Positions 5,550 to 29,877 of a stretch of 30,667 nucleotides of DNA are shown piece by piece (within the stretch, counting starts at the first letter, position 1; every line of letters begins with the position of its first letter). Both the position numbers and the translations under genes were made by a program. The notes below the pieces were generated by a model. It was given only the letters and a program-made list of their open reading frames with translations, was not told where the DNA came from and did not search any database. The stretch is from a virus. The stretch covers positions 1-30,667 of IMG/VR virus record IMGVR_UViG_3300047678_000848. One strand, given 5' to 3'.

Positions 5550-5713
5550 TGAACGACGGCCCGGCTTTGACAACGTTTACTATCAGCCTGTACAATCTGG
5601 TGACCCTATCCACAGGCCCATTCGCCGGACCCGGCGAATGTACCACGATGGGGCACAACCTCCAAGGCGCAAGACGCCCCGGCCGCAAAACTGCGTGCCG
5701 AAGGTGCGTCTGA
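5549..5713 (+). CDS. Possible 54-residue small protein with C/H cluster
   Basis: ATG 5549 overlaps the primase stop (TGATG) and opens a 54-codon frame ending at TGA 5711-5713. The protein has C31, H36, C50 and C53, which could form a small zinc site, and is basic at the end. Against it: the same DNA holds a near-consensus promoter (5567-5596) and a dispersed palindrome (5621-5646), and no ribosome site is visible, so translation would depend on coupling to the primase. It may be a spurious frame in a regulatory leader. Confidence 0.3.
   Translation: MNDGPALTTFTISLYNLVTLSTGPFAGPGECTTMGHNLQGARRPGRKTACRRCV
5567..5596 (+). promoter_or_regulatory. Sigma70-type promoter, probably for the late operon
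   Basis: TTGACA (5567-5572) is separated by 18 bases from TACAAT (5591-5596), five of six matches to the -10 consensus. Transcription would begin near 5603-5605. It sits directly after the replication genes and before packaging and structural genes, all of which follow on the same strand with only short gaps. This is the best promoter match I found in the window; the assignment to late genes is inferred from position. Confidence 0.6.
5621..5646. repeat. Second-family palindrome, simple form
   Basis: TTCGCCG, loop GACC, CGGCGAA, followed by tgtaccac. The same core and the same downstream TGT(C/A)CC context recur at 29771-29830 and, with an inserted ACCA-loop palindrome, at 11256-11321 and 13788-13853. 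Here it lies in the 5' leader about 20 bases downstream of the predicted transcription start. Confidence 0.65.
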
Positions 5714-6171: not shown

Positions 6172-6898
6172 GACACCCCATGGCACAAGTCGGCGGACCC
6201 GGCGACTTGACCATGGCGGACCGGCAAGTACTTGCTGTGGCGCTTTGGCCCGCTCGACTGGCGAGCCCTGCCAGCAGCCCGCCATGGCGAACGGCCGCTG
6301 TCGGTATCACGGCGGGAAGTCCTTAACCGGCGTTGCGAACCCGGCGTACCGCGATGGCCGCCACAGCAAGTACCTGCCGGTCCGCCTAGCCGCCCGCTAC
6401 GGCCAGAGCTTGCTTGATCCGGACTACCTGGCCTTGCGCGATGAGCTGGCCCTAGTCGACGCCCGCATTAGCGAGCTGTCTGAGAGCCTGCCCGACAGCG
6501 AGGAGATTGCCCAAACCTGGGAGTCGTTTCGCGCCCACTTCGCCGGTGCGGCCAGTGCCTACGACCGTAGCCGGGACAGTGCGTTGGCACCCGAGAAGCG
6601 GGCAGAGGCGCAGACCGAATTTTTTCAGCGCTTCGAGGCTGCCCTGTTGTTGTTTGCCGACGCGAAATCGATCGAGCAGCGCGGGGGTGCTCTCTGGGAC
6701 AAAATCGGCGACTGGCTGGAGCGACGGCGCAAACTTTCCGAGACCGAGGCGCTGCGGGTTTCCAAGGCTGCCGAGTCCATCAGCCGCGACCGGCTTGCCG
6801 CGCTGATGGGCGCGATCGCTCAGCTTATCCGTGCTAATGTCCGCGACCCTGCAACGCTCAACGCCCTACAAGACGGACTGCGTCGGCTTTGCGCTTGA
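6161..6898 (+). CDS. HGGKS-motif zinc protein, putative small terminase subunit
   Basis: 245 residues. Residues 25-54 contain CCG, GEPC, GRC and HGGKS (C26, C37, C47, H50), the compact Cys/His site of a phage family commonly encoded next to large terminases and often annotated as terminase small-subunit-like or HGGKS protein. NPAYRDGRHSKYLP follows, also typical. The rest (about 90-235) is helical and charged, suiting an oligomeric DNA-binding protein. The gene overlaps its upstream neighbour by 11 bases and the terminase start by 62 bases. A degenerate second-family palindrome (around 6189-6208) lies in its N-terminal codons. The packaging role is inferred from family habit and position. Confidence 0.6.
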   Translation: MAGETPHGTSRRTRRLDHGGPASTCCGALARSTGEPCQQPAMANGRCRYHGGKSLTGVANPAYRDGRHSKYLPVRLAARYGQSLLDPDYLALRDELALVDARISELSESLPDSEEIAQTWESFRAHFAGAASAYDRSRDSALAPEKRAEAQTEFFQRFEAALLLFADAKSIEQRGGALWDKIGDWLERRRKLSETEALRVSKAAESISRDRLAALMGAIAQLIRANVRDPATLNALQDGLRRLCA

Positions 6899-8513: not shown

Positions 8514-8545
8514 ACACAAGCTCGCCGTCACCGGCGAGCTTGTGT
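8514..8545. repeat. Perfect 14-bp hairpin, TCAC loop, after terL
   Basis: ACACAAGCTCGCCG (8514-8527), loop TCAC (8528-8531), CGGCGAGCTTGTGT (8532-8545). It starts 19 bases after the terL stop in a 73-base gap. No T-run follows, so it is a weak candidate for a terminator; RNA processing or 3'-end protection is as likely. It is the best copy of the TCAC/GTGA family. Confidence 0.8.
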
Positions 8546-11255: not shown

Positions 11256-11321
11256 AGTCGCCGAGCCTGGCGAAGCCGAACCCCGAGTTACCAAGCTCGG
11301 GGTTGGGCGAATGTCCCGCAG
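11256..11321. repeat. Composite palindromic element, copy 1
   Basis: A 66-base unit in the portal-scaffold gap, 62 of 66 identical to copy 2 (13788-13853). It contains a second-family hairpin (about 11258-11273) directly followed by a 15-bp ACCA-loop hairpin (11275-11308, one mismatch and one G-T pair). The ACCA hairpin interrupts the second-family sequence and is bounded by GGCGAA on both sides. Confidence 0.8.
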
Positions 11322-11389
11322 ATACCTCGCCGTCCCGGGTTGGGCGCTAAACGACCCGGATGGAATCTGTTGATTCCGGAGAACCACCT

Positions 11390-12178
11390 ATGGACGAACT
11401 ACTCGCAGACGGCTCGTCCGCGTCTGCAACCAGCGATGATGGCCCGAGCTACCAAGCTCGGGATGGTCAGGGATTCGAGGCGCGCGACTATGGCGACAGC
11501 TTAGACAGCGCTGCCGAGAAGGCAACGCTTGCCGAGCCGGAAGGGGGTGTTGAGCCTGCTGTAAGCCCCGAGCCGGACGCTGCGGCGACCGTGCCCTGGC
11601 ACAAAGATCCGCGCTTTCAGGAATGGAAGCAGGCTGAGACGCGCTACAAGCGTTTCGAGAGCCTGATCCAGCAGCTCGAAACTCAGGGGTTCGGCTCCGC
11701 CGACGATATCCAGGCGGCGCTCGAAGTACAGCGCCAACGCGAGGAGCTTTTGCACTACCAGCAGAGCCTGGAGGAGCAAGGCGTCGACGAAGTCGTGCAG
11801 CAGGAGTTGATTGCCGCCCGGCAACACGCAGCCCAACTGGAGGCGCGTGATCGTTACTGGCAGACACACGTGACCAACTCCGCCCTGCGGGAGGCGCGCG
11901 CCGTCCTGCCAGATATGACCCCAGATATTGAAAATCATTTGCGGAAATTGCCGCCCGATGCCATCGGCCAGATCGCCGAGACCCTCGCCGCCTATAAGGC
12001 GAGGGTCGAGAAGGCCGCTGTCGCCCGCTACGTCACCGAAAAATCCGCCGCCTTAAAGCAGCACCAGCAGCCGGAAGTCGGACGGGGGACTCCCCCGTCC
12101 GCCCGAATTGAGAATGCGTCGCCTGATACGCCGCTTTCGCAGCTTCTCGGCCTGCTGCCCCTGCCTCGGCGCGGATAA
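11390..12178 (+). CDS. Scaffolding protein
   Basis: 262 residues from ATG 11390, with GGAG at 11377-11380; an ATG 30 bases upstream lies in a small hairpin (11362-11377) and lacks a ribosome site. It is acidic, low in aromatic residues and rich in Gln/Glu, with long helical segments from about residue 78 to 165 and 170-225 that should form coiled coils. It lies directly before the capsid gene, the classic position for a scaffold that guides prohead assembly and is then lost. Residues 18-24 (G-P-S-Y-Q-A-R) come from an inserted ACCA-loop palindrome (11443-11462). The final 60 codons contain two more perfect hairpins (11980-12007, 12079-12101). Confidence 0.78.
   Translation: MDELLADGSSASATSDDGPSYQARDGQGFEARDYGDSLDSAAEKATLAEPEGGVEPAVSPEPDAAATVPWHKDPRFQEWKQAETRYKRFESLIQQLETQGFGSADDIQAALEVQRQREELLHYQQSLEEQGVDEVVQQELIAARQHAAQLEARDRYWQTHVTNSALREARAVLPDMTPDIENHLRKLPPDAIGQIAETLAAYKARVEKAAVARYVTEKSAALKQHQQPEVGRGTPPSARIENASPDTPLSQLLGLLPLPRRG
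11443..11462. repeat. ACCA-loop palindrome inside scaffold gene
   Basis: CCCGAGCT, ACCA (11451-11454), AGCTCGGG. Perfect 8-bp stem. It encodes the same P-S-Y-Q-A-R peptide as the copy in the primase gene at 3620-3639, in an acidic, probably disordered N-terminal region. Confidence 0.8.
11980..12007. repeat. Perfect 10-bp inverted repeat in scaffold gene
   Basis: GACCCTCGCC (11980-11989), 8-base spacer, GGCGAGGGTC (11998-12007). It encodes part of a helix (ETLAAYKARVEKA). Confidence 0.7.
12079..12101. repeat. Perfect 10-bp hairpin with ACT loop in scaffold gene
   Basis: CGGACGGGGG (12079-12088), ACT, CCCCCGTCCG (12092-12101). The triloop ACT is shared with the hairpin at 15652-15676. Confidence 0.75.
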
Positions 12179-12184
12179 CGATGG

Positions 12185-12202
12185 CGGAGCTACCAAGCTC
12201 CG
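12185..12202. repeat. ACCA-loop palindrome after scaffold gene
   Basis: CGGAGCT, ACCA (12192-12195), AGCTCCG, seven bases after the scaffold stop. It is an intergenic copy with the CGG...CCG type outer stem, unlike the CCG...CGG type inside the scaffold gene. Confidence 0.8.
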
Positions 12203-12231
12203 TCCCATAACGGACCACTTAGGAACTCGGC

Positions 12232-12253
12232 AAGCAGGGCAGATGCCCTGCTT
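12232..12253 (+). terminator. Terminator-like or processing hairpin before the capsid gene
   Basis: AAGCAGGGC (12232-12240), loop AGAT, GCCCTGCTT (12245-12253), then a GT-rich stretch with two TTTT runs (12260-12270). The stem is strong but the T-run is interrupted, so partial termination or an mRNA-processing/stability hairpin that raises capsid output is as likely. It ends 29 bases before the capsid ATG. Confidence 0.45.
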
Positions 12254-12282
12254 TGCGGGGTTTTGTGGTTTTGGAGACTCCT

Positions 12283-13305
12283 ATGCCCGTCGAATCCCAA
12301 TCGTATACACTGTCCGAAATCGCCGGGCGCAGCAATGACCCGATCCTCAAAAAGGTCGTGAACGTGCTGCACGAAGGCAACAACATCATGACGGATATCC
12401 CGTTGCGGACCAATGCGGCGCTCAAGATGCGCTGGTCGCGCTACGACCACACCTCGTCGCTGCCCACGATCAACTGGGCCAAAATCAACGAAGAACCTGC
12501 GGCAACGCGCGGCAAGCCGAGCTTCTACAGCACGGAAATGGCACTGATCCGCAATCTTTTCTCCATTGACCGCCGCCTAGCCGCGCAGCCCGACACCATC
12601 GGCAACCCGATCGACGACGATTTTGAGATCTGGAAGCAGGTTTTGCAGTACGAGTTCAACCGCCGGTTCATCTATAACGACCCGGCGACCGGTGAGGAAG
12701 ACGCGCCCGCAGGAATCAACACGATCCTGGCGAACCCATCGGTTTACGGCATGATCTCGGACACCAAGATCAACGTCAACCTCGACATCTCGCTCGCGAA
12801 CGTGACCGCCGCGGCGGCGCGCGCGCTCATGGTCCATTTGCAGCGCATCATTGCCCGTTGCACAGGCGGCAAGCGGCTCAAAGGTATTTTCTACTGTAAC
12901 CAGGACACGCTTGTTCTTGTTGCCAACGCCGCCCGCGTATTGGGTACGGGTGCAGGTTTCGACATCACACGCGATTCCTACGACCGTCCGTTTACGACGT
13001 TCATGGGTTACCCATTCAAGGACATCGGCTACGACGTCTCCCAGACGAACTACATCATCACCAACACCGAGCCGGCGACCGGCACCGGCAACACGGGGGG
13101 CACGGCGACGTCCGTTTACTTTGTGACCTACGGCGACCAAGCCGTGACCGGCTGGCAGCCCGAAGACCTGACCATCGAGCCGCTCGGTCGCTCGGAGCGC
13201 GGCACGCACAACCTGTATCTCATCGACTGGGGTGTCGGCTGGGCGTTCAAAGGCCCGCGCTGCATCGGCCAGCTCCACAACCTGACCCTGGGCTCGCTGC
13301 CGTAG
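12283..13305 (+). CDS. Major capsid protein
   Basis: 340 residues from ATG 12283, with GGAGACTCCT directly upstream (12272-12281). The N-terminal text SEIAGRSNDPILKKVVNVLHEGNNIMTDIPLRTN (here quoted only as: NVLHEGNNIMTDIP, about residues 27-40) is the arrangement of a widespread podo/siphovirus capsid family in which a helix is followed by an 'N.I..D.P' loop. Length, order (portal, scaffold, capsid) and the absence of palindromes or repeats agree with a highly constrained structural gene. C-terminal GWAFKGPRCIGQLHNL is also capsid-like. It would form the icosahedral shell. The fold is presumably HK97-like, inferred from the family. Confidence 0.88.
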   Translation: MPVESQSYTLSEIAGRSNDPILKKVVNVLHEGNNIMTDIPLRTNAALKMRWSRYDHTSSLPTINWAKINEEPAATRGKPSFYSTEMALIRNLFSIDRRLAAQPDTIGNPIDDDFEIWKQVLQYEFNRRFIYNDPATGEEDAPAGINTILANPSVYGMISDTKINVNLDISLANVTAAAARALMVHLQRIIARCTGGKRLKGIFYCNQDTLVLVANAARVLGTGAGFDITRDSYDRPFTTFMGYPFKDIGYDVSQTNYIITNTEPATGTGNTGGTATSVYFVTYGDQAVTGWQPEDLTIEPLGRSERGTHNLYLIDWGVGWAFKGPRCIGQLHNLTLGSLP

Positions 13306-13306
13306 C

Positions 13307-13329
13307 AAGCTCGCCGGTGACGGCGAATT
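13307..13329. repeat. GTGA-loop palindrome after capsid gene
   Basis: AAGCTCGCCG, loop GTGA (13317-13320), CGGCGAATT, with one C-A mismatch and one G-T pair. It is the opposite-orientation loop of the TCAC family (540-562, 8514-8545). It begins two bases after the capsid stop. A second imperfect stem, ATTCCC...GGGAAT, follows at about 13357-13378. Confidence 0.6.
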
Positions 13330-13392
13330 CTCTAGCGCCCTAACGGACCCTGACGATTCCCACGCGCGCGCGCGGGAATGGAGAACGAAACC

Positions 13393-13787: not shown

Positions 13788-13853
13788 AGTCGCCGGGCCC
13801 GGCGAAGCCCAACCCCGAGTTACCAAGCTCGGGGTTGGGCGAATGTCCCTCAG
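13788..13853. repeat. Composite palindromic element, copy 2
   Basis: 66 bases, four differences from copy 1 at 11256-11321. It has a fully self-complementary 16-base second-family core (13790-13805) and a 15-bp ACCA-loop hairpin (13807-13840) with a single G-T pair, bounded by GGCGAA on both sides. It begins 6 bases after the preceding stop and ends ahead of the chosen start of the next gene. Confidence 0.82.
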
Positions 13854-18729: not shown

Positions 18730-21700
18730 ATGCAAACCCTGCATAACGACACCCGTTTCTTAGGGATCGATGCGCGCACCGCGCCCGATCTTTTAGCGCC
18801 GGGATTCCTCACCGCGGCTGAGAACGTCCTGCTCGACGCGGACGGTCGCTTGTCCCAACGAGCGGGTTTTTCGCTCACCTGCGGTCTGGGTCACAATCCG
18901 AGCGCGGTATGCCCGTACGAAACGGCGTCCGGCCAGGCGGTGCTCGTTGTGGCAGGCGGGCGTCTTTACAACATGACGGGCGTGCCCGAGTTGGGCATGA
19001 GTCTGACGGAGATCGTCAACGAAGACAGCGCAACGGCATTCGATCTGGGCAGTGATGTTCTCATGGTGCGCTATGGCCGCTACGTTTACGGCACAGGCCA
19101 AGGCGGACTCTGGCGCTTCGACCCGGTGACAGGTACCGCCCGCTACGTCTCCGGGCTAAACCCCCCTGCGTTGGCCCCGCGCGTTGCCACTTCAGCGGCC
19201 GTTCTCGACAGCGCGACCGATGCGGCTACCTGGCAAGGCGTCGCCCCGCTCGCCTCTTACGTCAATCTGCTGTCCAATCCGAGCTTCGATGCGCCCGGCA
19301 CCAACCAGCCGCCCAACGCGCCCTGGACAAGGCCGGTTGATACAGGTGGTACCAACACTGCCGACTCGCTCACGGCCACGGGATCGAGTGGTCGTATGAC
19401 ACCCCAAGTCGGGTCGTACGCTCTTTTGCTCGATTGGACTGCAGACGCGATCGAGCAAGAGGTGGTCGCGCCTACGGTGGCGCGTACGGCCAACGGCACG
19501 TTTCCGGCACAGACGACCAAGGCGGCGCGCAAGATGGTTGTGCGCCTCCTCATCCACCAAGCGCATCCGGCTGGTGAAAGCGACCTGGACGTTACCCTCT
19601 ATGCGCTCGATGGGGCGACCACACCCGCCGTGCTGGGCCAGATCACGGCCAATGTCACGCAAGGTTACCAAGCGACTGCAGCCACCTGGGCGGTTAAGCA
19701 GCTCGTCTTCGACTTCAGCTTCCTTACGGTCGATCCGGCAAAATACCGATTGCGACTTCAGGGCGGCTCGCGCGCTGATACCGGGCTTGATGGTATCTAC
19801 ATCGACTACGCCGAGCTGGTCGCGGTTGACCCGCAGGCTGTGATCGCGTCGGCGGGCGGCGGCATCTCGGTTAAGTACCGCCCGCTTGCCAAGATCTACA
19901 GCCCGGTCAACAATACGCCAGGGTTCCTCACCGTAAACGACGCCATGCGGGCGACGGCGGGTTTTACCGTCACGCGTGGCTACGCAGGGGTGACGGGCAC
20001 AGCAAACGACTACTCGGACGTTTCGGCGCTCTACATCGGGGTGCAGCTCGCCGCGCACATCCGCAGCGCGTTTCTCGCCGTGGGCACCCTGCCGCGCTTT
20101 CGGGTCGGTTTTCAGACGGTCGGGTCGACGGACGTTTTGTGGAGCCCGACTGGCGTGTGGGACGCCGACGGCGCCAGTATCGGCTTCGACATCGCGGGCG
20201 TTTCTCCCGCAGCACGGGAGCAGACGACCGCACTGCACCTGCAATGCCTCGATTCGGTGCCCTCGACAGGCGATTTCCCGTTCGACGCGCTCTTTGCCGT
20301 GATCGGCCCCATAGCGTCGGGCACGGCGCTGGGTGTGGGGCTCACCTACGCCTACCGGGTCGAAGAGTGGCGCCGAACGGCAGCGCCGCCTGGTCCCGAC
20401 GATCTGCTCGGATACGGGCGCGTGGCGGGCGCGCAGTCCTCGGGCTCGCCCCTCTCCGCGGAGGTGACGACGACCGGCCTGCGCGCTCAGGTGCAGGTGA
20501 CTCTCGCCCCCCCCGTCAACACGATCACCGCCCCCGCGCAGGGCTTTTACCTGCTCTACCGACGTGGCGGCACCTACGACGACGGGCGCGAGTGGCTCGT
20601 CGACGTTTTGCCAATGGGAACGAGTGTGCTGCGCGGGGGCGTCCTGATCTGGGACGCGACAACGCGGGTTTACCAGGACAACATCCCCGACAGCACGCTC
20701 GACGGCCGACCGTACTACGAGATCGGGCGTGATCTGCCGCCGGTAAATCCGTCTTGCATCGCGGTCTATGGCGGGCGGTTGGCCCTGGGAGCAGGCAACA
20801 CAATCTATCTGTCGTGGCTTCTACAAGATGGCATTGAGGAAGGGATCTATTTCTCGAACGTCTCGATCGCTCTCGACGATCCGAACGCGGCGCTGAAGGG
20901 TGTTTCCTTTACCATCTCGTCCTCAGACGATTCCGAGCCGATCCTCTCGCTCACGGCGTTTCGCGGCCAGCTACTGGTTCACCGGCTGAACTCGTTCTCC
21001 GTGGTGACGGGCTCGGACCCAGCGACTCTGGCTGCGAGCGCTCCGCAAATCGGCCCGCGCTTCGGTCTGGCCGCAAAACGGGCAATTTGCATTGCGCAAA
21101 ACGAGCTGTGGTGGCTGTCGGGCGATGGCATCGTGGCGTATGCGGGCGGCGGCTCAGACGCCTCGGGGCGGGTGTATCTGGCGGGCAGCACGGCAAAGCG
21201 CGGCGAGAGCGTCCTGCCCATCCTACGTGAGGCAGGCGGCCCGGGCTTGTCGGGATTAGCGGGGTGGAGCAGCGCGCAGATGCTTTACCACGACGGCCGG
21301 GTGTACGTGCTCGTGCAAGGGCCGCCCGTGCTGCGTCCCGGATCGGCTCCGGCGCTCATCGTCGCCAACTCACGGCTGCTTGTCTACGACGCCCGCTTCG
21401 GCGACGCGGTAGCGCGCAGCGGCTGGACCCTGCTCACCGGGGCGACGTTCGCCACCCTGGCCTCGTTTGCCGGCGTGCGCGGCTCGACCCTTCTGCTCCT
21501 TGGCAGCAATGTCGCCGCGTCTCAGAAGGGTGTCTTCGTTTTCCCGACCGGGCCGACCAGCGGTGCCAGCGTCTGGGCGGATGCTAACCGGAGCGGGACG
21601 GTCCCGACGGTGACCATACGCTCGCGCGAGTATGGCCTGGACGGTGGCGGCAAGGCGCGATTCTCAGCCAGCGTCGCTACCCAACTGGAACTGCTGGCAA

Positions 21701-21945
21701 CGGGCAGCGCTGCTGCGGCCGTGACCGTTTTGTGGTCGGTCGTGGGGCGTGGAACCGGGCCGGACGCTGTGGCAACGGGAACAGCAATTTTTAAAACGGG
21801 AGTGCGGGCGGTGCGCATCCGCAAAATGCGCTCGGTGCTGGGCACGACCCACCGAGTCGATGTGGTTGTGGCAGGCGCAGCAGGCTTTGGCCTGTCGGGC
21901 ATCGGCCTGTCGGTGAGCGAGCGGCGCGTGACAGGCCGGGGCTGA
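18730..21945 (+). CDS. Large tail protein, nozzle/tail-knob-like with inserted carbohydrate-binding-like module
   Basis: 1071 residues from ATG 18730; the upstream ribosome site is weak. The N-terminal RFLGIDARTAPDLLAPGFLTA then AENVLLDADGRLSQRAGF is a pattern common to phage tail nozzle/stabilisation proteins (proteins at the distal end of the podovirus tail tube), and repeated beta segments later in the protein fit a propeller-like body. Residues about 178-374 begin with NLLSNPSFD and read like a carbohydrate-binding beta sandwich (CBM4/9-like) inserted in the body. The C-terminal part (REYGLDGGGKARFSAS, VRAVRIRKMRSVLGTTHRVDVVV) returns to tail-protein type sequence. Its stop (21943-21945) is in the same frame as the following repeat array and gene. 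Confidence 0.65.
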   Translation: MQTLHNDTRFLGIDARTAPDLLAPGFLTAAENVLLDADGRLSQRAGFSLTCGLGHNPSAVCPYETASGQAVLVVAGGRLYNMTGVPELGMSLTEIVNEDSATAFDLGSDVLMVRYGRYVYGTGQGGLWRFDPVTGTARYVSGLNPPALAPRVATSAAVLDSATDAATWQGVAPLASYVNLLSNPSFDAPGTNQPPNAPWTRPVDTGGTNTADSLTATGSSGRMTPQVGSYALLLDWTADAIEQEVVAPTVARTANGTFPAQTTKAARKMVVRLLIHQAHPAGESDLDVTLYALDGATTPAVLGQITANVTQGYQATAATWAVKQLVFDFSFLTVDPAKYRLRLQGGSRADTGLDGIYIDYAELVAVDPQAVIASAGGGISVKYRPLAKIYSPVNNTPGFLTVNDAMRATAGFTVTRGYAGVTGTANDYSDVSALYIGVQLAAHIRSAFLAVGTLPRFRVGFQTVGSTDVLWSPTGVWDADGASIGFDIAGVSPAAREQTTALHLQCLDSVPSTGDFPFDALFAVIGPIASGTALGVGLTYAYRVEEWRRTAAPPGPDDLLGYGRVAGAQSSGSPLSAEVTTTGLRAQVQVTLAPPVNTITAPAQGFYLLYRRGGTYDDGREWLVDVLPMGTSVLRGGVLIWDATTRVYQDNIPDSTLDGRPYYEIGRDLPPVNPSCIAVYGGRLALGAGNTIYLSWLLQDGIEEGIYFSNVSIALDDPNAALKGVSFTISSSDDSEPILSLTAFRGQLLVHRLNSFSVVTGSDPATLAASAPQIGPRFGLAAKRAICIAQNELWWLSGDGIVAYAGGGSDASGRVYLAGSTAKRGESVLPILREAGGPGLSGLAGWSSAQMLYHDGRVYVLVQGPPVLRPGSAPALIVANSRLLVYDARFGDAVARSGWTLLTGATFATLASFAGVRGSTLLLLGSNVAASQKGVFVFPTGPTSGASVWADANRSGTVPTVTIRSREYGLDGGGKARFSASVATQLELLATGSAAAAVTVLWSVVGRGTGPDAVATGTAIFKTGVRAVRIRKMRSVLGTTHRVDVVVAGAAGFGLSGIGLSVSERRVTGRG

Positions 21946-21956
21946 CCCCGAGCCAC

Positions 21957-22082
21957 GGAGCTACCAAGCTCCGTGAAGGAGCTACCAAGCTCCGTGAAGG
22001 AGCTACCAAGCTCCGTGAAGGAGCTACCAAGCTCCGTGAAGGAGCTACCAAGCTCCGTGAAGGAGCTACCAAGCTCCGTGAA
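21957..22082. repeat. Six perfect tandem copies of a 21-bp ACCA-loop hairpin unit
   Basis: The unit is GGAGCT-ACCA-AGCTCC-GTGAA; copies begin at 21957, 21978, 21999, 20 more at 22020, then 22041 and 22062, all identical. Each unit is a 6-bp hairpin (8 bp in the first, which is preceded by AC and followed by GT) plus a GTGAA linker. The array is 126 bases, seven codons per unit, ending ten bases before the next ATG. The linker of one unit plus the next stem reads GTGAAGGAG, a Shine-Dalgarno-like sequence half buried in a stem. It fills nearly the whole gap between two structural genes. Confidence 0.95.
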
Positions 22083-22092
22083 GGAAACGAGA

Positions 22093-22899
22093 ATGGGACT
22101 GCTTCAAGGGATTGGGAAAGTTTTGGGCCTGAGCGGGCAGAAGCGCTCGGGGTACTGGGGGCAGGCGGCAACCGCTCTTGGTCAACAAGCGGGACTCGGC
22201 GCACAGTACGGCCAGCTTGCGCGGCAGGGGCAGGAGCGCGCATCGCGTTTCACGCCCCAGTACGATGCCGCCGTGCAGAATCAGGCCGATTACCTGCGGC
22301 GAAACCCGTACGATCCGCAGCGCATGGACAGCTTATACAACCAGCGCACAGCCGTGGGCAACGCCGCCTTCGACCGTTCGGGCGCGGCAATCCAGAACAG
22401 CCTTGCCCGGCGTGGGATCGGGGGCGGGGTGCTCGCCGGCGCGCTCGCGGGCAACGAGATCGGACGCGCCCGTCTTCAGGCGGGTGTGCGCGGCCAGCTC
22501 GGCAATGAAGCTTACGCAAGCGAAGGGATGCGCCTCTCGCAGCTTGCGCAGCTTCTGGGCCAGGAGCGGGCAGGCGGCCTGTCCATGCAGATGGCCGGGG
22601 CGGGCGCGCAGGGCGGCGTCTATGGCAATCTGGCGCAAGGGTACGCACACCTCGGCGGCAGTGAGGACCAGTTCAACCAAGCAAACTCGCCGCTAGGTGC
22701 CATCGCTCAGCTTGCGGGCGCCTACGGCCAGTACCAGGGTATGGGCATGGGGGGGGGGGGCGCGGGCGGTATGGCGCAGGAGCCGGGCGTGACAGCTTCT
22801 GCGCCGATCGATCCACAGCTTCTTGCCCTGATGCGCCGCCGCCTGGGGAACGTGACCCCTGCGAATCAAGAGGCCTTCGATTACTACGGAGGTGGCTAA
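22093..22899 (+). CDS. Internal virion / DNA-ejection protein, glycine-alanine rich
   Basis: 268 residues from ATG 22093, with GAAGGAA at 22079-22085. The open frame extends upstream through the whole repeat array, where it would read ELPSSVK repeats; ATG 22093 is chosen because it follows the first free ribosome site. The N-terminal segment GLLQGIGKVLGLSG is amphipathic; the middle (NQADYLRRNPYDPQRMDSLYNQRTAVGNAAFDRSGAAIQNSLARRGIGG, given here only by position, about residues 57-104) is typical of small ejected proteins of podoviruses; the rest is Ala/Gln/Gly rich. A G12 tract (22749-22760) encodes glycines. Followed by two further probable ejection proteins. Confidence 0.6.
   Translation: MGLLQGIGKVLGLSGQKRSGYWGQAATALGQQAGLGAQYGQLARQGQERASRFTPQYDAAVQNQADYLRRNPYDPQRMDSLYNQRTAVGNAAFDRSGAAIQNSLARRGIGGGVLAGALAGNEIGRARLQAGVRGQLGNEAYASEGMRLSQLAQLLGQERAGGLSMQMAGAGAQGGVYGNLAQGYAHLGGSEDQFNQANSPLGAIAQLAGAYGQYQGMGMGGGGAGGMAQEPGVTASAPIDPQLLALMRRRLGNVTPANQEAFDYYGGG
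22749..22760 (+). repeat. Run of twelve G in coding sequence
   Basis: Twelve consecutive G bases encode Gly residues in the C-terminal part of the ejection protein at 22093-22899. Tracts of this length are prone to slippage in replication and also to sequencing error; the frame is intact in this reading. Confidence 0.9.
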
Positions 22900-22900
22900 T

Positions 22901-24229
22901 ATGATCGGTCTGGATATCGGGGGGCTCATGGCGCTGCTGGAAAAGCGCCGACGTGACACGTCTCCAGTCCTCGCTGGCGGTAGCGACCCGCGCGTCTTCA
23001 CGGAGCTTGGTAGCTCCGTCCGGTCCCGTCCGCTCGCCCTGGTGCGGGACGGCGTTTCCGACCCGCTCGACGTAGCTCCCGACCTGCCGCAAGATCCCAC
23101 ACGGAGCTTGGTAGCTCCGTCCGGGTCGGTTTCGCGCCCGCCTCACCCGACGCTAGTCGGTGGCTCTTACGCCTACGAGCCCGCGCCGACCATGGCCCCG
23201 CTGCCGGGTGCGCCGCGCCACTCCCTCCCTGAGGAACGGGCCTCGCTGGGTCGTGGTGCCCTACTCGGTGGGCTAACGGGCTTGCTGTTGGGTCAGGGGC
23301 TGCGCGGGGCTGCTGCGGGCGCGGGCGGCTTCGCGCAGGGCTTTGGACAGGGGGCGGATCGGGCGGACGCGATTCGGCGTCAGCAGTGGGGAGACCAGAT
23401 CCACCAGCAGCTGCAGGACTTCAGCCATCAGCGCCAAGGCTGGGCGGATAAAACGGCGCTGACAGACCGGCAGATGCGCGCAGACGGGATGCAAAACGCA
23501 AACGCTCTGCGCACCTACCAGACCGATATGGCCGCCTACGAGCAGGCGATGAACCGGTTCCAGCGAGAAGCACAGGCCAAAGCCGACCGGGCAAGTCGAG
23601 AAGCGGTTGTAGGAAACACTCTTGCCGAGCAGCGGCGGCAGTTCGACACGGCGCAGCCGCACAAGATCAAGCAGATACAGTCGCAAAACCACTACCGCGC
23701 AGCGATGGCCGACTTTCTAGGCACGCGCGCAGCCGATATCGCCGCAGACAACAACCACATAAAAAAGAAAGACGCAGCGGACCGGCGGCTCGCTAAGCAG
23801 CGTCTGGCGAACGAACTGGAGCGTATCGCCCTAGCAGAGCGCTCGCGCAAAGACCGATTGCAGTTGGGGACGCAGAGCAACCAGATTCAAGCGCGGCGCG
23901 CGGCGACTGAGCGGGGCAAGAAGCTGACCTGGGCCGACGTGCAGAAAAGTCTGGCCGACATCGCCGCCCGTGCCTCCGTGCTGGAATCGCCTGTACGCGT
24001 CGATTTCGACGAAGTCGATAAAAAGGGCGGATTTTCCAGAAAGGGGACACGTTACGATCCGGCACCCAGCGAGAAGGTGGCGGCAGCCCTCGCGCTGCGA
24101 GATGCGATCATAGCCAAAGCGGCCGAGTGGGGGTACATGGTCGAGTTTCAAAATGGTCGGCCAATCTACACAAAGGCGGGACGTCGTCCTAGCGGCGGCT
24201 ATCTGGATGGGGGCGCAGGAAAACGCTGA
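22901..24229 (+). CDS. Internal virion protein with coiled coils
   Basis: 442 residues from ATG 22901, with GGAGGTGG at 22888-22895; a GTG nine bases earlier overlaps that site and is less likely. Residues about 1-110 are Pro/Ser rich and contain two ACCA-family palindromes (TGGT orientation). Residues about 117-150 are glycine-rich and hydrophobic (ALLGGLTGLLLGQGLRG), able to insert in a membrane. Residues 150-360 are long charged helices rich in Gln/Arg/Ala (coiled coil). The last 80 residues form a small domain (PVRVDFDEVDKKGGFSRKGT). Proteins of this build are packaged in podovirus heads and ejected to form a channel. It is coupled to the next gene by TGATG. Confidence 0.6.
   Translation: MIGLDIGGLMALLEKRRRDTSPVLAGGSDPRVFTELGSSVRSRPLALVRDGVSDPLDVAPDLPQDPTRSLVAPSGSVSRPPHPTLVGGSYAYEPAPTMAPLPGAPRHSLPEERASLGRGALLGGLTGLLLGQGLRGAAAGAGGFAQGFGQGADRADAIRRQQWGDQIHQQLQDFSHQRQGWADKTALTDRQMRADGMQNANALRTYQTDMAAYEQAMNRFQREAQAKADRASREAVVGNTLAEQRRQFDTAQPHKIKQIQSQNHYRAAMADFLGTRAADIAADNNHIKKKDAADRRLAKQRLANELERIALAERSRKDRLQLGTQSNQIQARRAATERGKKLTWADVQKSLADIAARASVLESPVRVDFDEVDKKGGFSRKGTRYDPAPSEKVAAALALRDAIIAKAAEWGYMVEFQNGRPIYTKAGRRPSGGYLDGGAGKR
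23000..23120. repeat. Two ACCA-family palindromes in one gene, in different reading frames
   Basis: Copies at 23000-23019 and 23101-23120: ACGGAGCT, TGGT, AGCTCCGT, both followed by CCGG, so 24 bases are identical. The first is read as T-E-L-G-S-S-V and the second as R-S-L-V-A-P-S, a different frame. Both lie in the Pro/Ser-rich N-terminal part of the internal protein. Confidence 0.85.
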
Positions 24230-27200
24230 TGCCAGATATCATTGGGCGCAGCGCCCGGACGGGGCGACAGTACCAGATCCGCTACAATGGCCCCGGCGCG
24301 CTGACGGATCGCGAGATCCAGCGCGCTGTCGACAAGGCCGAGGCCGACAACGAGGGGTACGACATCGAGCGGATCGTCGTCCAACCCGCCGGAGCGAGCG
24401 GGGATCAGCCCGTCCTCACCCTGGCGAAGGAACGGCCTGTGGGCACCGTAGCCGCGGGCCTTGGCGCTCGGCTGGAGGGCGAGATGCGCGTCCGCACAGG
24501 CCGTCTGGCCGCCCGCCTAGGGACGGTCGAGCCTGTCCAACAGATGCGCCCGGTGTCAGACTCGCCGCTCTTGCGCCTGCTGGCAAACGTCAAGACCGGC
24601 ATCTACGATTCGTCCCAGCGCCTGGCGGACGGGATGACCCTGAAGAACGCTGCGCCTGAGCGGGCCAAAAACGCGGCGCAGTTTTTGGCCCAGACCTTGC
24701 CAGAGTCGACCATGCGGGCGCTGGCGGGCATCGCAACGAGCCCCATAACCGCGCCTGGTGCCCTGCTGCAGAACGTCATGAACGCGGGTACACGCCGCGC
24801 CTACGGCCAGGAGCAGGCGTCAAACAGAGACCCGCTGACGCGCATGGCAGGAGCGGGCGAGCAAAGGGCAGCGGGCAAGGATCTGGTGTTCGGCACACTG
24901 GGTGCTGCCGTACCGTTCTCGGGCGAGATTCGGGCGGCGACGGATGGCGGCGTCGGTAGCGCGTGGGACGCGCTGAAAGAGCGTGCATTATCGGACCCGA
25001 TATCGCTGGGGATCGACGCCGTTCCAGTGGTTGGTGCATTACGTGGAGGTGTCGGTGCCACCAAAGCAGCCAGTCTGGCCAGGTCTGCCTTGCGGAAACC
25101 TCTCCCTGTGAGCACCGTTCCGATCCAGGTACATTCGCCCAACCATGGGGCTTCGCCGAGGACGGCGACTGTAGCAACCGAAGCGCCGCGCCCCTACGCG
25201 CACGTGAAGCGGGGCAGCGAACGGGCTCGCCTGGCACCGGAGGATCTGGAGCAATTCCCTGGTGGGACCGGCCCGATGGCTTTCACCTTCGGGGATGCCA
25301 CCAACAACGGGATGTACGTCAATCCGACGACCGGGGCACAAGTACGGCTCCATGGTGGCATTGGCTACTCGCTCGATGACGAACACTTCGGCCGCTTTGC
25401 ATGGGCGTCTAAGGGAGCGCGCCAGGCAAATGCGATCCCTCGTCGCGCACAAGAGACCGGCGGCCTAGTCCATGTTGTCAACATGAAGCCCGAGGCCATG
25501 CTAACGAGCCAGCACGGTGTCCTCGTGCTCCAGGCTGAAATCGACGCCGCCATCCGGAACGGCACCGCTACTCCAAGCGACTTTCTGCATATGGTTAACG
25601 CGGTAATAGAGATGAAGGGGGGGAAGCCGATCCAGCTTCTGGGGCGTCGTCCCGAACAAGCGCTGGCCACTCTGGCGGATCACCTCACGGTTTTATCGTT
25701 TGAACAGCGGAAGCGCATTGTTCAGGCAGCGCTCAGCAAAAAGCAAAAATGGCTCCCTGACTACGAAACCGTGTTACCCCTCATGCGCGATCCCGCACTT
25801 GAGGGGGCACGAGCTGGAGACATCGTTGGATCGCTGTATGTCGATCCAAAGGGGCAGCCCGTCCCTGCTCGCGTACTGGGCGCTCCGGAGCACCCGGCCT
25901 ACCCCCTGGCGATACCTGGCACCGGCCTCGGTCTTGCATCTACCAGGCCCCATCTGCAGGAACTACTAACCGACCTGTTTGAACAGGTGAGAAACGACAT
26001 CTCCCAGCGTTGGGCAGCGCAAGGCAAAAAAGGGAAAAATGGTGTTCCGGCTATTCCCAGCGACGCCGAAGTGTACAATGAAGTCAGCCTACTACTGGAG
26101 CGCAAACATGATAACGTCTGGACAGGAAACAGAGATGCCGCCGCAACACAGCTCACTCAACCCCGACCTGGTGGAGTTCTTCGCGGCACTGTGGGCGGAA
26201 GCGACGCGCCTGGAACGGCAGCGTATGGCAGCCTCGCAAACGACCAAGCCCTATCTGGTGGCGGCAGGGATTCTATCCGAGGACGGGCAGAACCAGCCGG
26301 TGGCGGCGAGCTTGCAGCGGGGGGCGAGTCCCGAGCACCGAATCTAGCCCGAGCACCGAATCTAGTTCGAGGCCCCCATCCACCGACCCGCCACAACCTG
26401 CCGTCGATCGAAGAGAGGTTCGGTAATCTGATCGGCGGCCCGCAGGCGCGCTCCGCCTTGCATCATTCGGATTCGGGCAGGAGTGGTACTGCGCCCAGCT
26501 CTCTCCCCTTGGGCGGGATGACGCGTGCGGCACAGCACGCGCTCGCCGAGCGCCTGGGCTACGAACTCGATTCGGACGGCAACATCCCTCGTACGCATGC
26601 CCAAACCATCGAACGCGCCCTGGCACGACGCGATGAACTCAGCGCCCTGATCGACGAGCGCGAGCCGGGACGCGACGTGCCGGGCAGCAATGAGGAAATG
26701 GTGATCGTTGACCTGCGCCAGCAAGAGGCCGAACAACGGTATACCGCCCTAGCGCACGACGCGCCTGAGACCGAGCGCCTAGCCGCGCTGGCGGAAATCT
26801 CAGGACTTGGACGGCTCAAGGTGGCGTGGGGTCGCGAAGCAGGTCGCAACCTTGGTTTTATTCGGGCGGTTGTCCCCGACCCGACGAGCGTTGCTCACAC
26901 CATCACGGCTGTCGAGAAGGCAGTTGGCGAGGACCTCTCGCCAGCGTCGCGACAGTGGTTTGCGAAAAAGGCGACGGAGGCAAAGGAAGCCAAGGAGAAG
27001 ATCGACGCGCAGATCGCCACGCGGGGTGAGAAAGCGGCAGCCAAGCTCCGCGGTCAGTTCGCCCGCTTCGATACGAGCGCGGAGTCGATGCAGACGCAGA
27101 TCAAGGCGTTGCAAAAACAGGCCCGCAAATCGAATCGTTTGCGCGGGCGGCTCGCCAGTAAAACGGAAGCCGCGCAAACCGCTGCACAGGAAGCGGCAGA

Positions 27201-29223
27201 TGCAGCTGCAACTGCCCAGGGTGAGTACGACGCGACGCTCGTGCCGAAAGCCACCCAGCGCACTCAGGCGGCGGCAGAGCAACGACTCCTGCGTGCAAAC
27301 GAGGTGGCCGCACAGAGACAGGCCGCCATCAAGGGGCTGGAAGAGGAGCTTCGAAATCTCGAGACGAAGCGGCCGTATCTTGATAAACAGATCGCCGCGC
27401 TAAAAGCGGAAATCCCCGTGGCGCGCCGGGAGAACCGCATGGCAGAACGCTCGGCGGAGCGACTACAGCAGCGCCTCGATGCGCTCACTGCCCAGGCCTA
27501 CGAGTCGACCCAGCGCAAGGAACGGCTGGTTTCAGATCTTGCCAGCAAGAGAGCGGCGATGCGCAAGCAGGCGGCGGCAGATGAGCGCATCGCTACGCTC
27601 GGCGCAGACCGAGCGCGCCGCACTCCGCATCTCAATCCGTATATCGATGTCGCGCTTGGGGAGTACACTGCCGGTGCGACCAAGCTCGACCTCTTGGCCC
27701 GGCGACTCAAGGCGAAGATCGGGACGGATCTACCGATAGATCTCGTCGAGGAGCTTTTCAAAGAAGCCGCCGCGCGGTACAAGGTCGACTACAAGGCCGT
27801 CGACGATATCGCGTTTGAGATGTCCCAGCGCGTCGAGCGAGAGCTGCGCCAGCGCAAGTCCTTCGTTCTTCGGGGATTCGCGGCGCTGGGCGATATAGCG
27901 AACGCGCACCAAACGATGCTTGCGAGCGGCGATCTATCGGGTCTTGGCCGCCAGGGAGGGCTGGTCAGCGGTCCGAACATGCTCGGTCTGCGTGGCCGCA
28001 CCGGGCTACAAAGTATGTTTGGCGGTGCGGGTAGCAGCGGGGCGATCCGCGACATGCTCCGCGCTGGAGGGAGCGAGAACGAGCTAGCCCGGCAAGAGGC
28101 CGGACTCTCCGCCCGGCAGACCCGGCTCTACGGCGACGCGAATCACTACGAGAGGGTCGGTCTGGATCTGACGACGACAGATCGCAAGGCAGGTGCGGCA
28201 TTCCACGAGGAAGAGTTTCGATCGTCGCCGGCGGAGCGCATCCCGGTCCTCGGGCGCGGCGTCGCGGCGTCTGAGCGCGCCTACAATGCGGTCCTGAACC
28301 GGCTGCGGGCAGATCAGTTTGACTACATGGTCCGGGGGCTCAAAAGCACGGGTGAGCAGCTCACGCGCGACCAGGAGGTCATGGCGCGATGGACCAACGT
28401 GCTGACCGGGCGCGGCGATCTGCGCGAGTTCGGCAAGCCCGAAAACGCGGCTGTGGTCGCATCGGCTTTGGCCAACAGCGTGACCTGGTCGCCCCGTTTC
28501 GCCCTGTCGCGCGCCCAGTTCATCGTCGCGCCACTGAACCCGATGAGCGCCATGTATGCCCGTGGCATCAGCCGCCAAGCACGGCTGCGCATCGCGGGAG
28601 ATCTGGCAAAAACGTGGGCATCGATCTACACCACGATGCTGCTGGCGCGGCAAGTGGGGTGTCAGGTCGAGCTCGATCCCAGACACCAAGATTTCGGACT
28701 CATCCAACTGCCTGGCAGCGACCTAGAGATCGACGCCATGGCCGGACTACGGCCGACCATGCGCGCCAGCAGCAGGATGCTGACGAACACTACGCTAGAC
28801 TCGCGCAATGGCATGACAAACAAGCAGCCAAAGCCTCACGATACCGACTACCCTCTCGAATTGGGGAAGTTCCTCTTCGGCAAGAGCCGCCCTGTGATTG
28901 GCCTCGGGACAGAGACGTTGTCGGGACACACGACAACCGGCGAAAAATTCGACGCGCCGGAGGCGGCGACGCAGCTCCTGCTCAATATCGGCGTGGCGGA
29001 TATGGTGCGCGGTTTCCGCGCACAGGGCTACAGCCAGCAGACGGCGGCAGAACTCGCGGCAGCGTTCACACTATCGACCCTCGGTGTGGGCGCCAGTGTG
29101 CGCGACCGGTTCGGCGAGGAGGCGGATCGGCACTTTGACCGGAAAATTCAGCGGCTCCTCCCTGACGAGCCCGCCGGTTTGTGGAACGTGATCAGCAACG
29201 GCTTCGCTCGGGGCGAGCGCTAA
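24229..29223 (+). CDS. Very large multidomain internal (polyvalent-like) virion protein
   Basis: 1664 residues from ATG 24229, which overlaps the previous stop. Regions: 1-115 with a small N-terminal domain; 120-280 Ala/Gly rich with hydrophobic helices (ISLGIDAVPVVGALRGG); about 348-595 a globular domain (MAFTFGDATNNGMYVNPTTG, RLHGGIGYSLDD, VHVVNMKPEAMLTS, GDIVGSLYVDPKGQPV) which I recall from giant phage/plasmid polyvalent proteins but cannot name; 600-720 low complexity; about 911-1128 a long coiled coil; about 1441-1664 a C-terminal region (LNPMSAMYARGIS, LDPRHQDFGLIQLPGSDLEID) of the large-polyvalent-protein type. It is probably packaged and ejected with the DNA, with enzymatic or counter-defence modules. 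An 18-bp tandem duplication and an 11-bp hairpin (24662-24691) lie in the gene. Confidence 0.65.
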   Translation: MPDIIGRSARTGRQYQIRYNGPGALTDREIQRAVDKAEADNEGYDIERIVVQPAGASGDQPVLTLAKERPVGTVAAGLGARLEGEMRVRTGRLAARLGTVEPVQQMRPVSDSPLLRLLANVKTGIYDSSQRLADGMTLKNAAPERAKNAAQFLAQTLPESTMRALAGIATSPITAPGALLQNVMNAGTRRAYGQEQASNRDPLTRMAGAGEQRAAGKDLVFGTLGAAVPFSGEIRAATDGGVGSAWDALKERALSDPISLGIDAVPVVGALRGGVGATKAASLARSALRKPLPVSTVPIQVHSPNHGASPRTATVATEAPRPYAHVKRGSERARLAPEDLEQFPGGTGPMAFTFGDATNNGMYVNPTTGAQVRLHGGIGYSLDDEHFGRFAWASKGARQANAIPRRAQETGGLVHVVNMKPEAMLTSQHGVLVLQAEIDAAIRNGTATPSDFLHMVNAVIEMKGGKPIQLLGRRPEQALATLADHLTVLSFEQRKRIVQAALSKKQKWLPDYETVLPLMRDPALEGARAGDIVGSLYVDPKGQPVPARVLGAPEHPAYPLAIPGTGLGLASTRPHLQELLTDLFEQVRNDISQRWAAQGKKGKNGVPAIPSDAEVYNEVSLLLERKHDNVWTGNRDAAATQLTQPRPGGVLRGTVGGSDAPGTAAYGSLANDQALSGGGRDSIRGRAEPAGGGELAAGGESRAPNLARAPNLVRGPHPPTRHNLPSIEERFGNLIGGPQARSALHHSDSGRSGTAPSSLPLGGMTRAAQHALAERLGYELDSDGNIPRTHAQTIERALARRDELSALIDEREPGRDVPGSNEEMVIVDLRQQEAEQRYTALAHDAPETERLAALAEISGLGRLKVAWGREAGRNLGFIRAVVPDPTSVAHTITAVEKAVGEDLSPASRQWFAKKATEAKEAKEKIDAQIATRGEKAAAKLRGQFARFDTSAESMQTQIKALQKQARKSNRLRGRLASKTEAAQTAAQEAADAAATAQGEYDATLVPKATQRTQAAAEQRLLRANEVAAQRQAAIKGLEEELRNLETKRPYLDKQIAALKAEIPVARRENRMAERSAERLQQRLDALTAQAYESTQRKERLVSDLASKRAAMRKQAAADERIATLGADRARRTPHLNPYIDVALGEYTAGATKLDLLARRLKAKIGTDLPIDLVEELFKEAAARYKVDYKAVDDIAFEMSQRVERELRQRKSFVLRGFAALGDIANAHQTMLASGDLSGLGRQGGLVSGPNMLGLRGRTGLQSMFGGAGSSGAIRDMLRAGGSENELARQEAGLSARQTRLYGDANHYERVGLDLTTTDRKAGAAFHEEEFRSSPAERIPVLGRGVAASERAYNAVLNRLRADQFDYMVRGLKSTGEQLTRDQEVMARWTNVLTGRGDLREFGKPENAAVVASALANSVTWSPRFALSRAQFIVAPLNPMSAMYARGISRQARLRIAGDLAKTWASIYTTMLLARQVGCQVELDPRHQDFGLIQLPGSDLEIDAMAGLRPTMRASSRMLTNTTLDSRNGMTNKQPKPHDTDYPLELGKFLFGKSRPVIGLGTETLSGHTTTGEKFDAPEAATQLLLNIGVADMVRGFRAQGYSQQTAAELAAAFTLSTLGVGASVRDRFGEEADRHFDRKIQRLLPDEPAGLWNVISNGFARGER
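24662..24691. repeat. Perfect 11-bp hairpin with 8-base loop in the 1664-residue gene
   Basis: GGGCCAAAAAC (24662-24672), spacer GCGGCGCA, GTTTTTGGCCC (24681-24691). On either strand it resembles an intrinsic terminator stem without a free T-run. It encodes part of a helix (ERAKNAAQFLAQ). Confidence 0.7.
26330..26365. repeat. 18-bp tandem duplication
   Basis: CCCGAGCACCGAATCTAG occurs twice in a row (26330-26347, 26348-26365) and encodes APNLARAPNLVR in the low-complexity linker of the 1664-residue protein. It keeps the reading frame. Confidence 0.85.
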
Positions 29224-29269
29224 AAACCCCGTTCGTCCTCTTCGGTCGCCGAGCGCGGCACCTTGACCA

Positions 29270-29287
29270 CGGAGCTTGGTAGTTCCG
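29270..29287. repeat. Degenerate ACCA-family palindrome before the holin gene
   Basis: CGGAGCT, TGGT (29277-29280), AGTTCCG; one G-T pair in the stem. Located in the 102-base gap after the 1664-residue gene. A further degenerate relative follows at about 29296-29312. The rest of this gap shows only a weak second-family-like core (29244-29258). Confidence 0.6.
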
Positions 29288-29325
29288 CCATGGTCCGAGC
29301 TACACCCAACTCCGAAAGAGTCATC

Positions 29326-29877
29326 ATGCCATCCAAGAAAATAGGAATTGCCTTGAACCTATCTCTTCTTTACGTCTTCGAGTGGATCTGCGCGATCACC
29401 CCGGGAAAGGTCGAGAAATTGAGCCTCATCCCGCTCGTCTTCATCGTCGCCGACACGTTCACCGGCGTCGCCGTGGCCGCGATGCGCGGCAGGCTTTCCT
29501 CCCGGCTGCTGTGGCAAAAGGCTCTGCTCAAGACCAGTGCGTACACCGCCTTTCTGCTCGTCGGCTTCACCGTCTCGGCGATCACGCAGCAAGAGATCCA
29601 CCTTATGGCCGCGCTTGGGCTCATCACTGGCGCTGAGATCGTGAGCCTGGGCGAGAACGTCATCGCCATGCGCGCCTGGGGACTCTACTTCGGCCCAGCA
29701 AACGCCTGGCTGGAGAAGATCGGCGGGCTGTTCCCCACCCCGGATAGTCCAAGTAGCAAAGACCCACAGGCCGAGTCGCCAGACCCGGCGAATGTCCCAC
29801 CCGAGTCGCCAGACCCGGCGAATGTCCCACAGGCGCCACCGACACCACCGACTTCGACAGGAGGACCGACACCGTGA
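29326..29877 (+). CDS. Holin (phage holin family 4 / toxin-secretion lysis type)
   Basis: 183 residues from ATG 29326, with GAAAGAG at 29314-29320; longer upstream frames run through the degenerate palindrome and lack a ribosome site. Four hydrophobic segments: about 5-24 (IGIALNLSLLYVFEWICAI), 33-55 (SLIPLVFIVADTFTGVAVAA), 66-86 (LLKTSAYTAFLLVGFTVSAI) and 93-110. The segment with 'VADTFTG' followed by basic loop and 'LLWQKALLKTS' is the hallmark arrangement of holin family 4_1. It would open the inner membrane to release the endolysin encoded 200 bases on. The last 50 residues are a Pro/Ser tail built partly from a 30-bp tandem repeat (29771-29830). The stop overlaps the next GTG. Confidence 0.82.
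   Translation: MPSKKIGIALNLSLLYVFEWICAITPGKVEKLSLIPLVFIVADTFTGVAVAAMRGRLSSRLLWQKALLKTSAYTAFLLVGFTVSAITQQEIHLMAALGLITGAEIVSLGENVIAMRAWGLYFGPANAWLEKIGGLFPTPDSPSSKDPQAESPDPANVPPESPDPANVPQAPPTPPTSTGGPTP
29771..29830. repeat. Two perfect 30-bp tandem copies of a second-family palindromic element
   Basis: Units 29771-29800 and 29801-29830 are identical and encode ESPDPANVPP twice in the holin tail. Each carries the tcgccagacccggcga core followed by atgtcccac, the uninterrupted form of the sequence that contains an inserted ACCA-loop hairpin at 11256-11321 and 13788-13853. Confidence 0.85.

Follow-up and report, generated by a model that had tools for sequence, protein, structure and literature searches.

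The DNA analysed here, a contig of 30,667 bases (the window), comes from an unclassified bacterial virus that its portal protein (PF16510) identifies as a P22-like podovirus. The genome is partial, as the contig starts inside a UvrD-like gene and has no detected ends, and all annotated genes in the window run forward. Searches of IMG/VR with the major capsid, terminase, tail and downstream proteins returned no close relatives; the terminase has 571 distant phage matches, and the first among the matches listed, from Pseudoalteromonas vB_PspP-H6/1, is 35% identical. Rfam and tRNA searches gave no match. The repeat array that is the subject of this study separates two forward-strand genes. The upstream virion (tail) gene (18730–21945, 1071 aa) weakly matches PHROG 511, ‘internal virion protein’, and its product found no match in a PDB sequence search; its TGA stop codon sits in the loop of a hairpin, CGGGG[CTGA]CCCCG. 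The downstream gene (22093–22899) encodes a Gly/Ala/Gln-rich protein of 268 aa without a family match, whose designation as an ‘ejection protein’ is suggested by gene order only.

Positions 21957–22082 hold six identical 21-bp units, GGAGCTACCAAGCTCCGTGAA, on the forward strand, after which the sequence runs on into GGA. Tandem Repeats Finder (TRF) called the array at 21957–22085 with a period of 21, 6.1 copies, 100% matches and a score of 258, making it the best array in the window by a wide margin and bearing out the preliminary description of a perfect six-copy repeat. Each unit comprises a 6-bp stem closed by an ACCA loop, GGAGCT[ACCA]AGCTCC, and a GUGAA spacer. The stems and linkers described earlier are thus present, but the linker is GUGAA rather than GUGAAGGAG, because GGAG already belongs to the following stem as its 5′ arm. 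The first hairpin, CACGGAGCT[ACCA]AGCTCCGTG (21954–21975), is also the longest, with a 9-bp stem; it starts 9 nt 3′ of the tail-gene stop and is likely the founder unit of the array. At the other end, the last unit passes via GGA into the Shine-Dalgarno sequence of the downstream gene, GAAGGA, which together with the ATG at 22093 occupies 22081–22095. This GGA (22083–22085) is microhomologous to the first bases of every unit, and GGA is found at both joins of the array.

The predicted RNA of this region is unusually stable, with a minimum free energy z-score of −5.5 relative to shuffled sequences. Since any 5′ arm can pair with any 3′ arm, it may fold either as a long rod (−72 kcal/mol) or as six separate stems (−64 kcal/mol), consistent with the earlier proposal that the two virion genes are separated by a series of stems in the RNA. 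The downstream Shine-Dalgarno sequence (22080–22086) is 64–97% unpaired in the predicted folds, whatever stretch of upstream units is included, and the downstream AUG is mostly unpaired over the same range. The earlier suggestion that the units act as decoy ribosome sites finds no support in these folds, where the GGAG of each unit is buried in a stem. The array was also absent from the terminator-like sites in the window; lacking a U-run after its stem, it is not an intrinsic terminator. Because it is not an intrinsic terminator, and because the downstream ribosome-binding site and start codon are predicted to be open, the array block would likely protect the end of the upstream mRNA and separate the two genes. 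It may also serve as an expression tuner or a protein-binding site, as originally suggested.

The array hairpin is not confined to this gap. A 12-mer from its core (AGCTACCAAGCT/AGCTTGGTAGCT), allowing up to one mismatch in either orientation, occurs at nine separate loci when the array is counted once, where 0.09 would be expected from the base composition of the window. A looser hairpin pattern was found 14 times in the window versus 1.8 times in shuffled sequences, none of which (0/100) reached 14. Six of the 12-mer loci are in forward orientation (near 3622, 11284, 11445, 12186 and 13816, plus the array) and three in reverse (near 23002, 23103 and 29271). Five of the nine are intergenic and four lie inside open reading frames, in a window of which 7.4% is intergenic (P of about 2e-4). 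Of the forward intergenic copies, one whose stem has about 15 pairs (11275–11308) lies in the gap between the portal and scaffold genes, nested in a second palindrome (11256–11321); another (12183–12204) begins 5 nt 3′ of the stop codon of ORF 11360–12178; and a third, with a 15-pair stem (13807–13840), is nested in 13788–13853 with GCGAA on both flanks. The reverse copy at 29268–29292 falls between ORF 24229–29223 and the holin gene. Altogether, family hairpins begin 5, 6 and, in the case of the array, 9 nt behind stop codons. The coding copies are found in the Prim-Pol/D5_N linker of the primase-helicase or near the N-termini of two ORFs. The linker copy, GCCGAGCT[ACCA]AGCTCGGC (3620–3639), and a copy near the N-terminus of ORF 11360–12178, CCCGAGCT[ACCA]AGCTCGGG (11443–11462), both forward, each encode PSYQAR, while two reverse copies (22996–23019 and 23100–23124) lie in ORF 22892–24229 in different reading frames.

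Family elements span 16–34 bp around a conserved 14-bp core, GAGYT[ACCA]AGCTC. When the nine loci were aligned in one orientation, 14 columns were invariant and 98.6% of stem cells were paired. Two stem pairs have changed on both sides: one position alternates between C-G and G-C, and another shows A-U, C-G, G-C and G-U. The resulting covariation score was reached by none of 500 shuffles and by no slid register. Coming from only nine, related copies, this covariation shows that the hairpins are either kept or generated, without telling which.

Several features make the copies look like moved DNA rather than simply repeated sites. The copy at 22996–23019 is the reverse complement of 21955–21978 at 24 of 24 positions, including a GAAG outside the stem; 12178 and 29269 match inversely at 92% over 26 nt; and the sequences beginning at 11256 and 13788 are 94% identical over 66 nt. 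In the latter two, the ACCA hairpin sits within a second palindromic repeat. Removing a 37-bp insert from 13788, on both sides of which GCGAA stands, leaves the 25-mer AGTCGCCGGGCCCGGCGAATGTCCC, only two mismatches from each of the copies at 29774 and 29804; when the window was Markov-shuffled 20 times, the best match to this 25-mer had six mismatches. These two tandem copies, AGTCGCCAGACCCGGCGAATGTCCC (29774–29828, forward strand), lie in the C-terminus of the holin and represent an ‘empty’ form of the second palindrome, which lacks the ACCA hairpin. By sequence comparison, filled and empty sites coexist in one genome, in one family only within the window. The two filled copies may reflect one event plus a duplication, and the direction of change would be insertion rather than deletion. 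A shared left flank, GATGGC, was considered as a tag and dropped, as this hexamer is common in the window.

Other palindromes and repeats were noted. The second dispersed family, GTCGCCRGACCCGGCGAATGTCCC, occurs at 5619–5640 (an intergenic, forward-strand copy with a GACC loop) and 6186–6209, in addition to the tandem pair at 29774–29828. A third, AAGCTCGCCG[TCAC]CGGCG, is present at 531–564, 8514–8545, 13305–13331 and 26289–26322, with its loop inverted (GTGA) in one copy. A 42-bp perfect hairpin (2598–2639) with a 19-bp stem and CCGA loop lies within the part of the gene that encodes the Prim-Pol domain; this segment is presumably not an insertion, and the palindrome seems to have arisen inside a conserved coding stretch. 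Two very strong perfect hairpins with 13- and 17-bp stems (2245–2405) are located upstream of, or at, the primase-helicase start, possibly marking a replication or regulatory region, and imperfect GGTGAACCATTGGGG repeats (5058–5350) occupy the C-terminal part of the same ORF. A 28-nt inverted repeat, 96% complementary and with arms 116 nt apart (6215–6386), lies near the start of the ORF preceding the terminase, and a hairpin followed by a T-rich stretch (12232–12262) forms a terminator-like element directly 5′ of the major capsid gene.

Searches for the core elsewhere gave four matches in IMG/VR, one per contig, along with unrelated simple repeats, which is not above chance, and 29 single matches in GTDB genomes from unrelated taxa, below the roughly 60 estimated by chance. 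Several of the GTDB matches recur in the same coding context, and in a few the match continues into a hairpin with a T-run behind it. A host origin of the repeat was rejected, the GTDB matches being below the chance estimate and scattered over unrelated taxa. As the core was not found above chance in either collection, the family appears private to this P22-like podovirus; near records of the virus were possibly left out of these collections, and ‘private’ therefore means as far as searched. The literature searched contained no phage case of dispersed palindromes of this kind, and a published one may still exist.

The closest resemblance is to REP elements, including Rickettsia RPE-4 and RPE-6 (PMC3733652), which are likewise 20–40 bp palindromes with 8–9 bp stems and 4-nt loops, form sub-families with exchanged complementary stem residues, and are placed mostly between genes, with some intragenic copies and occasional nesting in other palindromes. 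Rickettsia palindromic elements also enter genes (PMC3733652). Measured against the features that define REPs, the phage hairpins are short palindromes with short loops, stems in the expected 5–13 bp range and exchanged complementary stem residues, in mainly intergenic units with some intragenic ones (5/9 intergenic, in 7.4% of the window). Unlike REPs, they occur in a phage, are private as far as searched, number nine loci, include a head-to-tail array of identical units, and come without a visible transposase. The unpaired terminal GTAG/CGTC tag is also missing: in the nine-locus alignment no flanking sequence is conserved beyond the stem, and the string CGTC occurs at only three loci, where it overlaps the stem. 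The family thus behaves like REPs but, because the tag is absent, is not filed in the GTAG/CGTC super-families. The closest phage precedent, the stoperators of cluster A mycobacteriophages (PMC9283540), also comprises many short conserved sites genome-wide, several in short intergenic gaps. Stoperators are asymmetric and oriented with transcription, however, whereas the phage family is near-palindromic, with six loci forward and three reverse among annotated genes that all run forward, and no repressor was found in the window. The hairpins further resemble intergenic stem-loops that protect mRNA 3′ ends (PMC7509114), in that their stems are strong and closely follow stop codons, by a few bases, in a polycistronic late region, but here six stems are repeated, the element is also found inside genes, and its role is predicted from structure and position only.

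Since the hairpin is a dispersed repeat that also occurs inside genes, a mobile or slippage-prone palindrome becomes the default explanation. We consider it probable that slipped-strand replication produced the array by expanding one member of a REP-like family of mini-palindromes that is dispersed in this phage and private to it, a reading that draws on the two-orientation dispersal, the stem covariation, the pairwise sharing beyond the hairpin and the filled and empty sites, and that proposes the founder and its slippage, the mode of spread and the mRNA barrier. A single founder hairpin (21954–21977) with GGA microhomologies on its flanks would have been copied repeatedly, head to tail, through slippage during replication, in keeping with the recent expansion suggested earlier, which our analysis supports. 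In the founder arrangement, CAC-GGAGCTACCAAGCTCCGTGAA-GGAAACGAGAATG, GGA begins the first arm of the hairpin and recurs past GUGAA, and slippage between the two across the hairpin would yield exactly the unit observed. The family itself could have spread by insertion or by template switching during replication. In the late mRNA, the block would resemble an intergenic REP in its action, forming a strong barrier of RNA just 3′ of the tail-gene stop and leaving the downstream ribosome site open. The number of array copies is probably not finely selected. A stronger version, in which the family is a phage-owned, host-independent and actively mobile mini-palindrome of REP/RPE type that inserts with a 5-bp flanking repeat into intergenic gaps, other palindromes and protein linkers, amplifies in tandem and reshapes late-gene mRNA, is possible but on balance doubtful. 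No transposase was recognised among the window ORFs scanned against Pfam, but these come from an incomplete genome, and the host could supply such an enzyme.

Alternatively, a polymerase prone to template switching may make and repair hairpins genome-wide, leaving the array and its relatives as functionless by-products. Template switching is known to generate perfectly paired stems and inverted spacers (PMC8794818, PMC8604942), the window carries 5.2 perfect hairpins (stems of at least 9) per 10 kb, compared with 1.3 in controls of matched G+C content and 0.7 in Markov sequence, and the 19-bp perfect stem within the Prim-Pol coding region (2598–2639) fits such a process. It would account for arms and loop inversion but not for one 14-bp core at nine distant loci, and the intergenic copies 5, 6 and 9 nt behind stops suggest tolerance or use; we regard this reading as rather unlikely. 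A similarly low probability attaches to the proposal that the loci are dispersed sites, comparable to operators or stoperators, at which a DNA-binding regulator or a structural protein of the phage would bind, with the array as a high-occupancy cluster. We retain it because even the loop is conserved, with the rest of the core, in both orientations, as if duplex DNA were read, and because the 30 kb contain nine loci, many of them in short gaps between genes. Binding sites, though, need neither the sequence that pairs share past the core nor filled and empty sites; the two orientations among genes annotated in one direction are unlike stoperators (PMC9283540), and the window contains no candidate repressor.

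Programmed readthrough, or an alternative start, would give a tail fusion or a downstream extension with ELPSSVK repeats. As the preliminary description stated, the TGA (21943–21945), the array and the ATG at 22093 share one frame without an intervening stop; the opening extends over 21946–22899, and the UGA is followed by C. Given the frame, however, chance alone would produce such an opening in about half of cases: units 2–6 repeat the seven codons of unit 1, and only about 21 independent sense codons are needed, at roughly even odds for this G+C content by our estimate. One neighbouring gene in three would share the frame anyway. Two codons of the unit, CTA and CCA, are rare (7% and 14% of their families), no free Shine-Dalgarno sequence precedes GTG 21973, and ATG 22093 has its own GAAGGA, making readthrough or an upstream start very improbable. 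Least credible of all are site-specific inversion sites around the downstream gene, for although the inverted copies at 21955 and 22996 match perfectly over 24 bp and lie 1 kb from each other, no recombinase was found in the window, the seven other loci flank nothing sensible, and inversion would set a virion gene against its operon.

Bacterial chromosomes are known to contain small palindromic repeats, but observing these in the act of moving is difficult. If our interpretation of the array as an expanded copy of a dispersed phage palindrome is correct, a compact phage genome would offer a simple system for studying how such hairpins originate, spread and affect polycistronic mRNA, as it would combine filled and empty sites with copies that are inverted or lie inside genes and with a perfect tandem expansion of one element.
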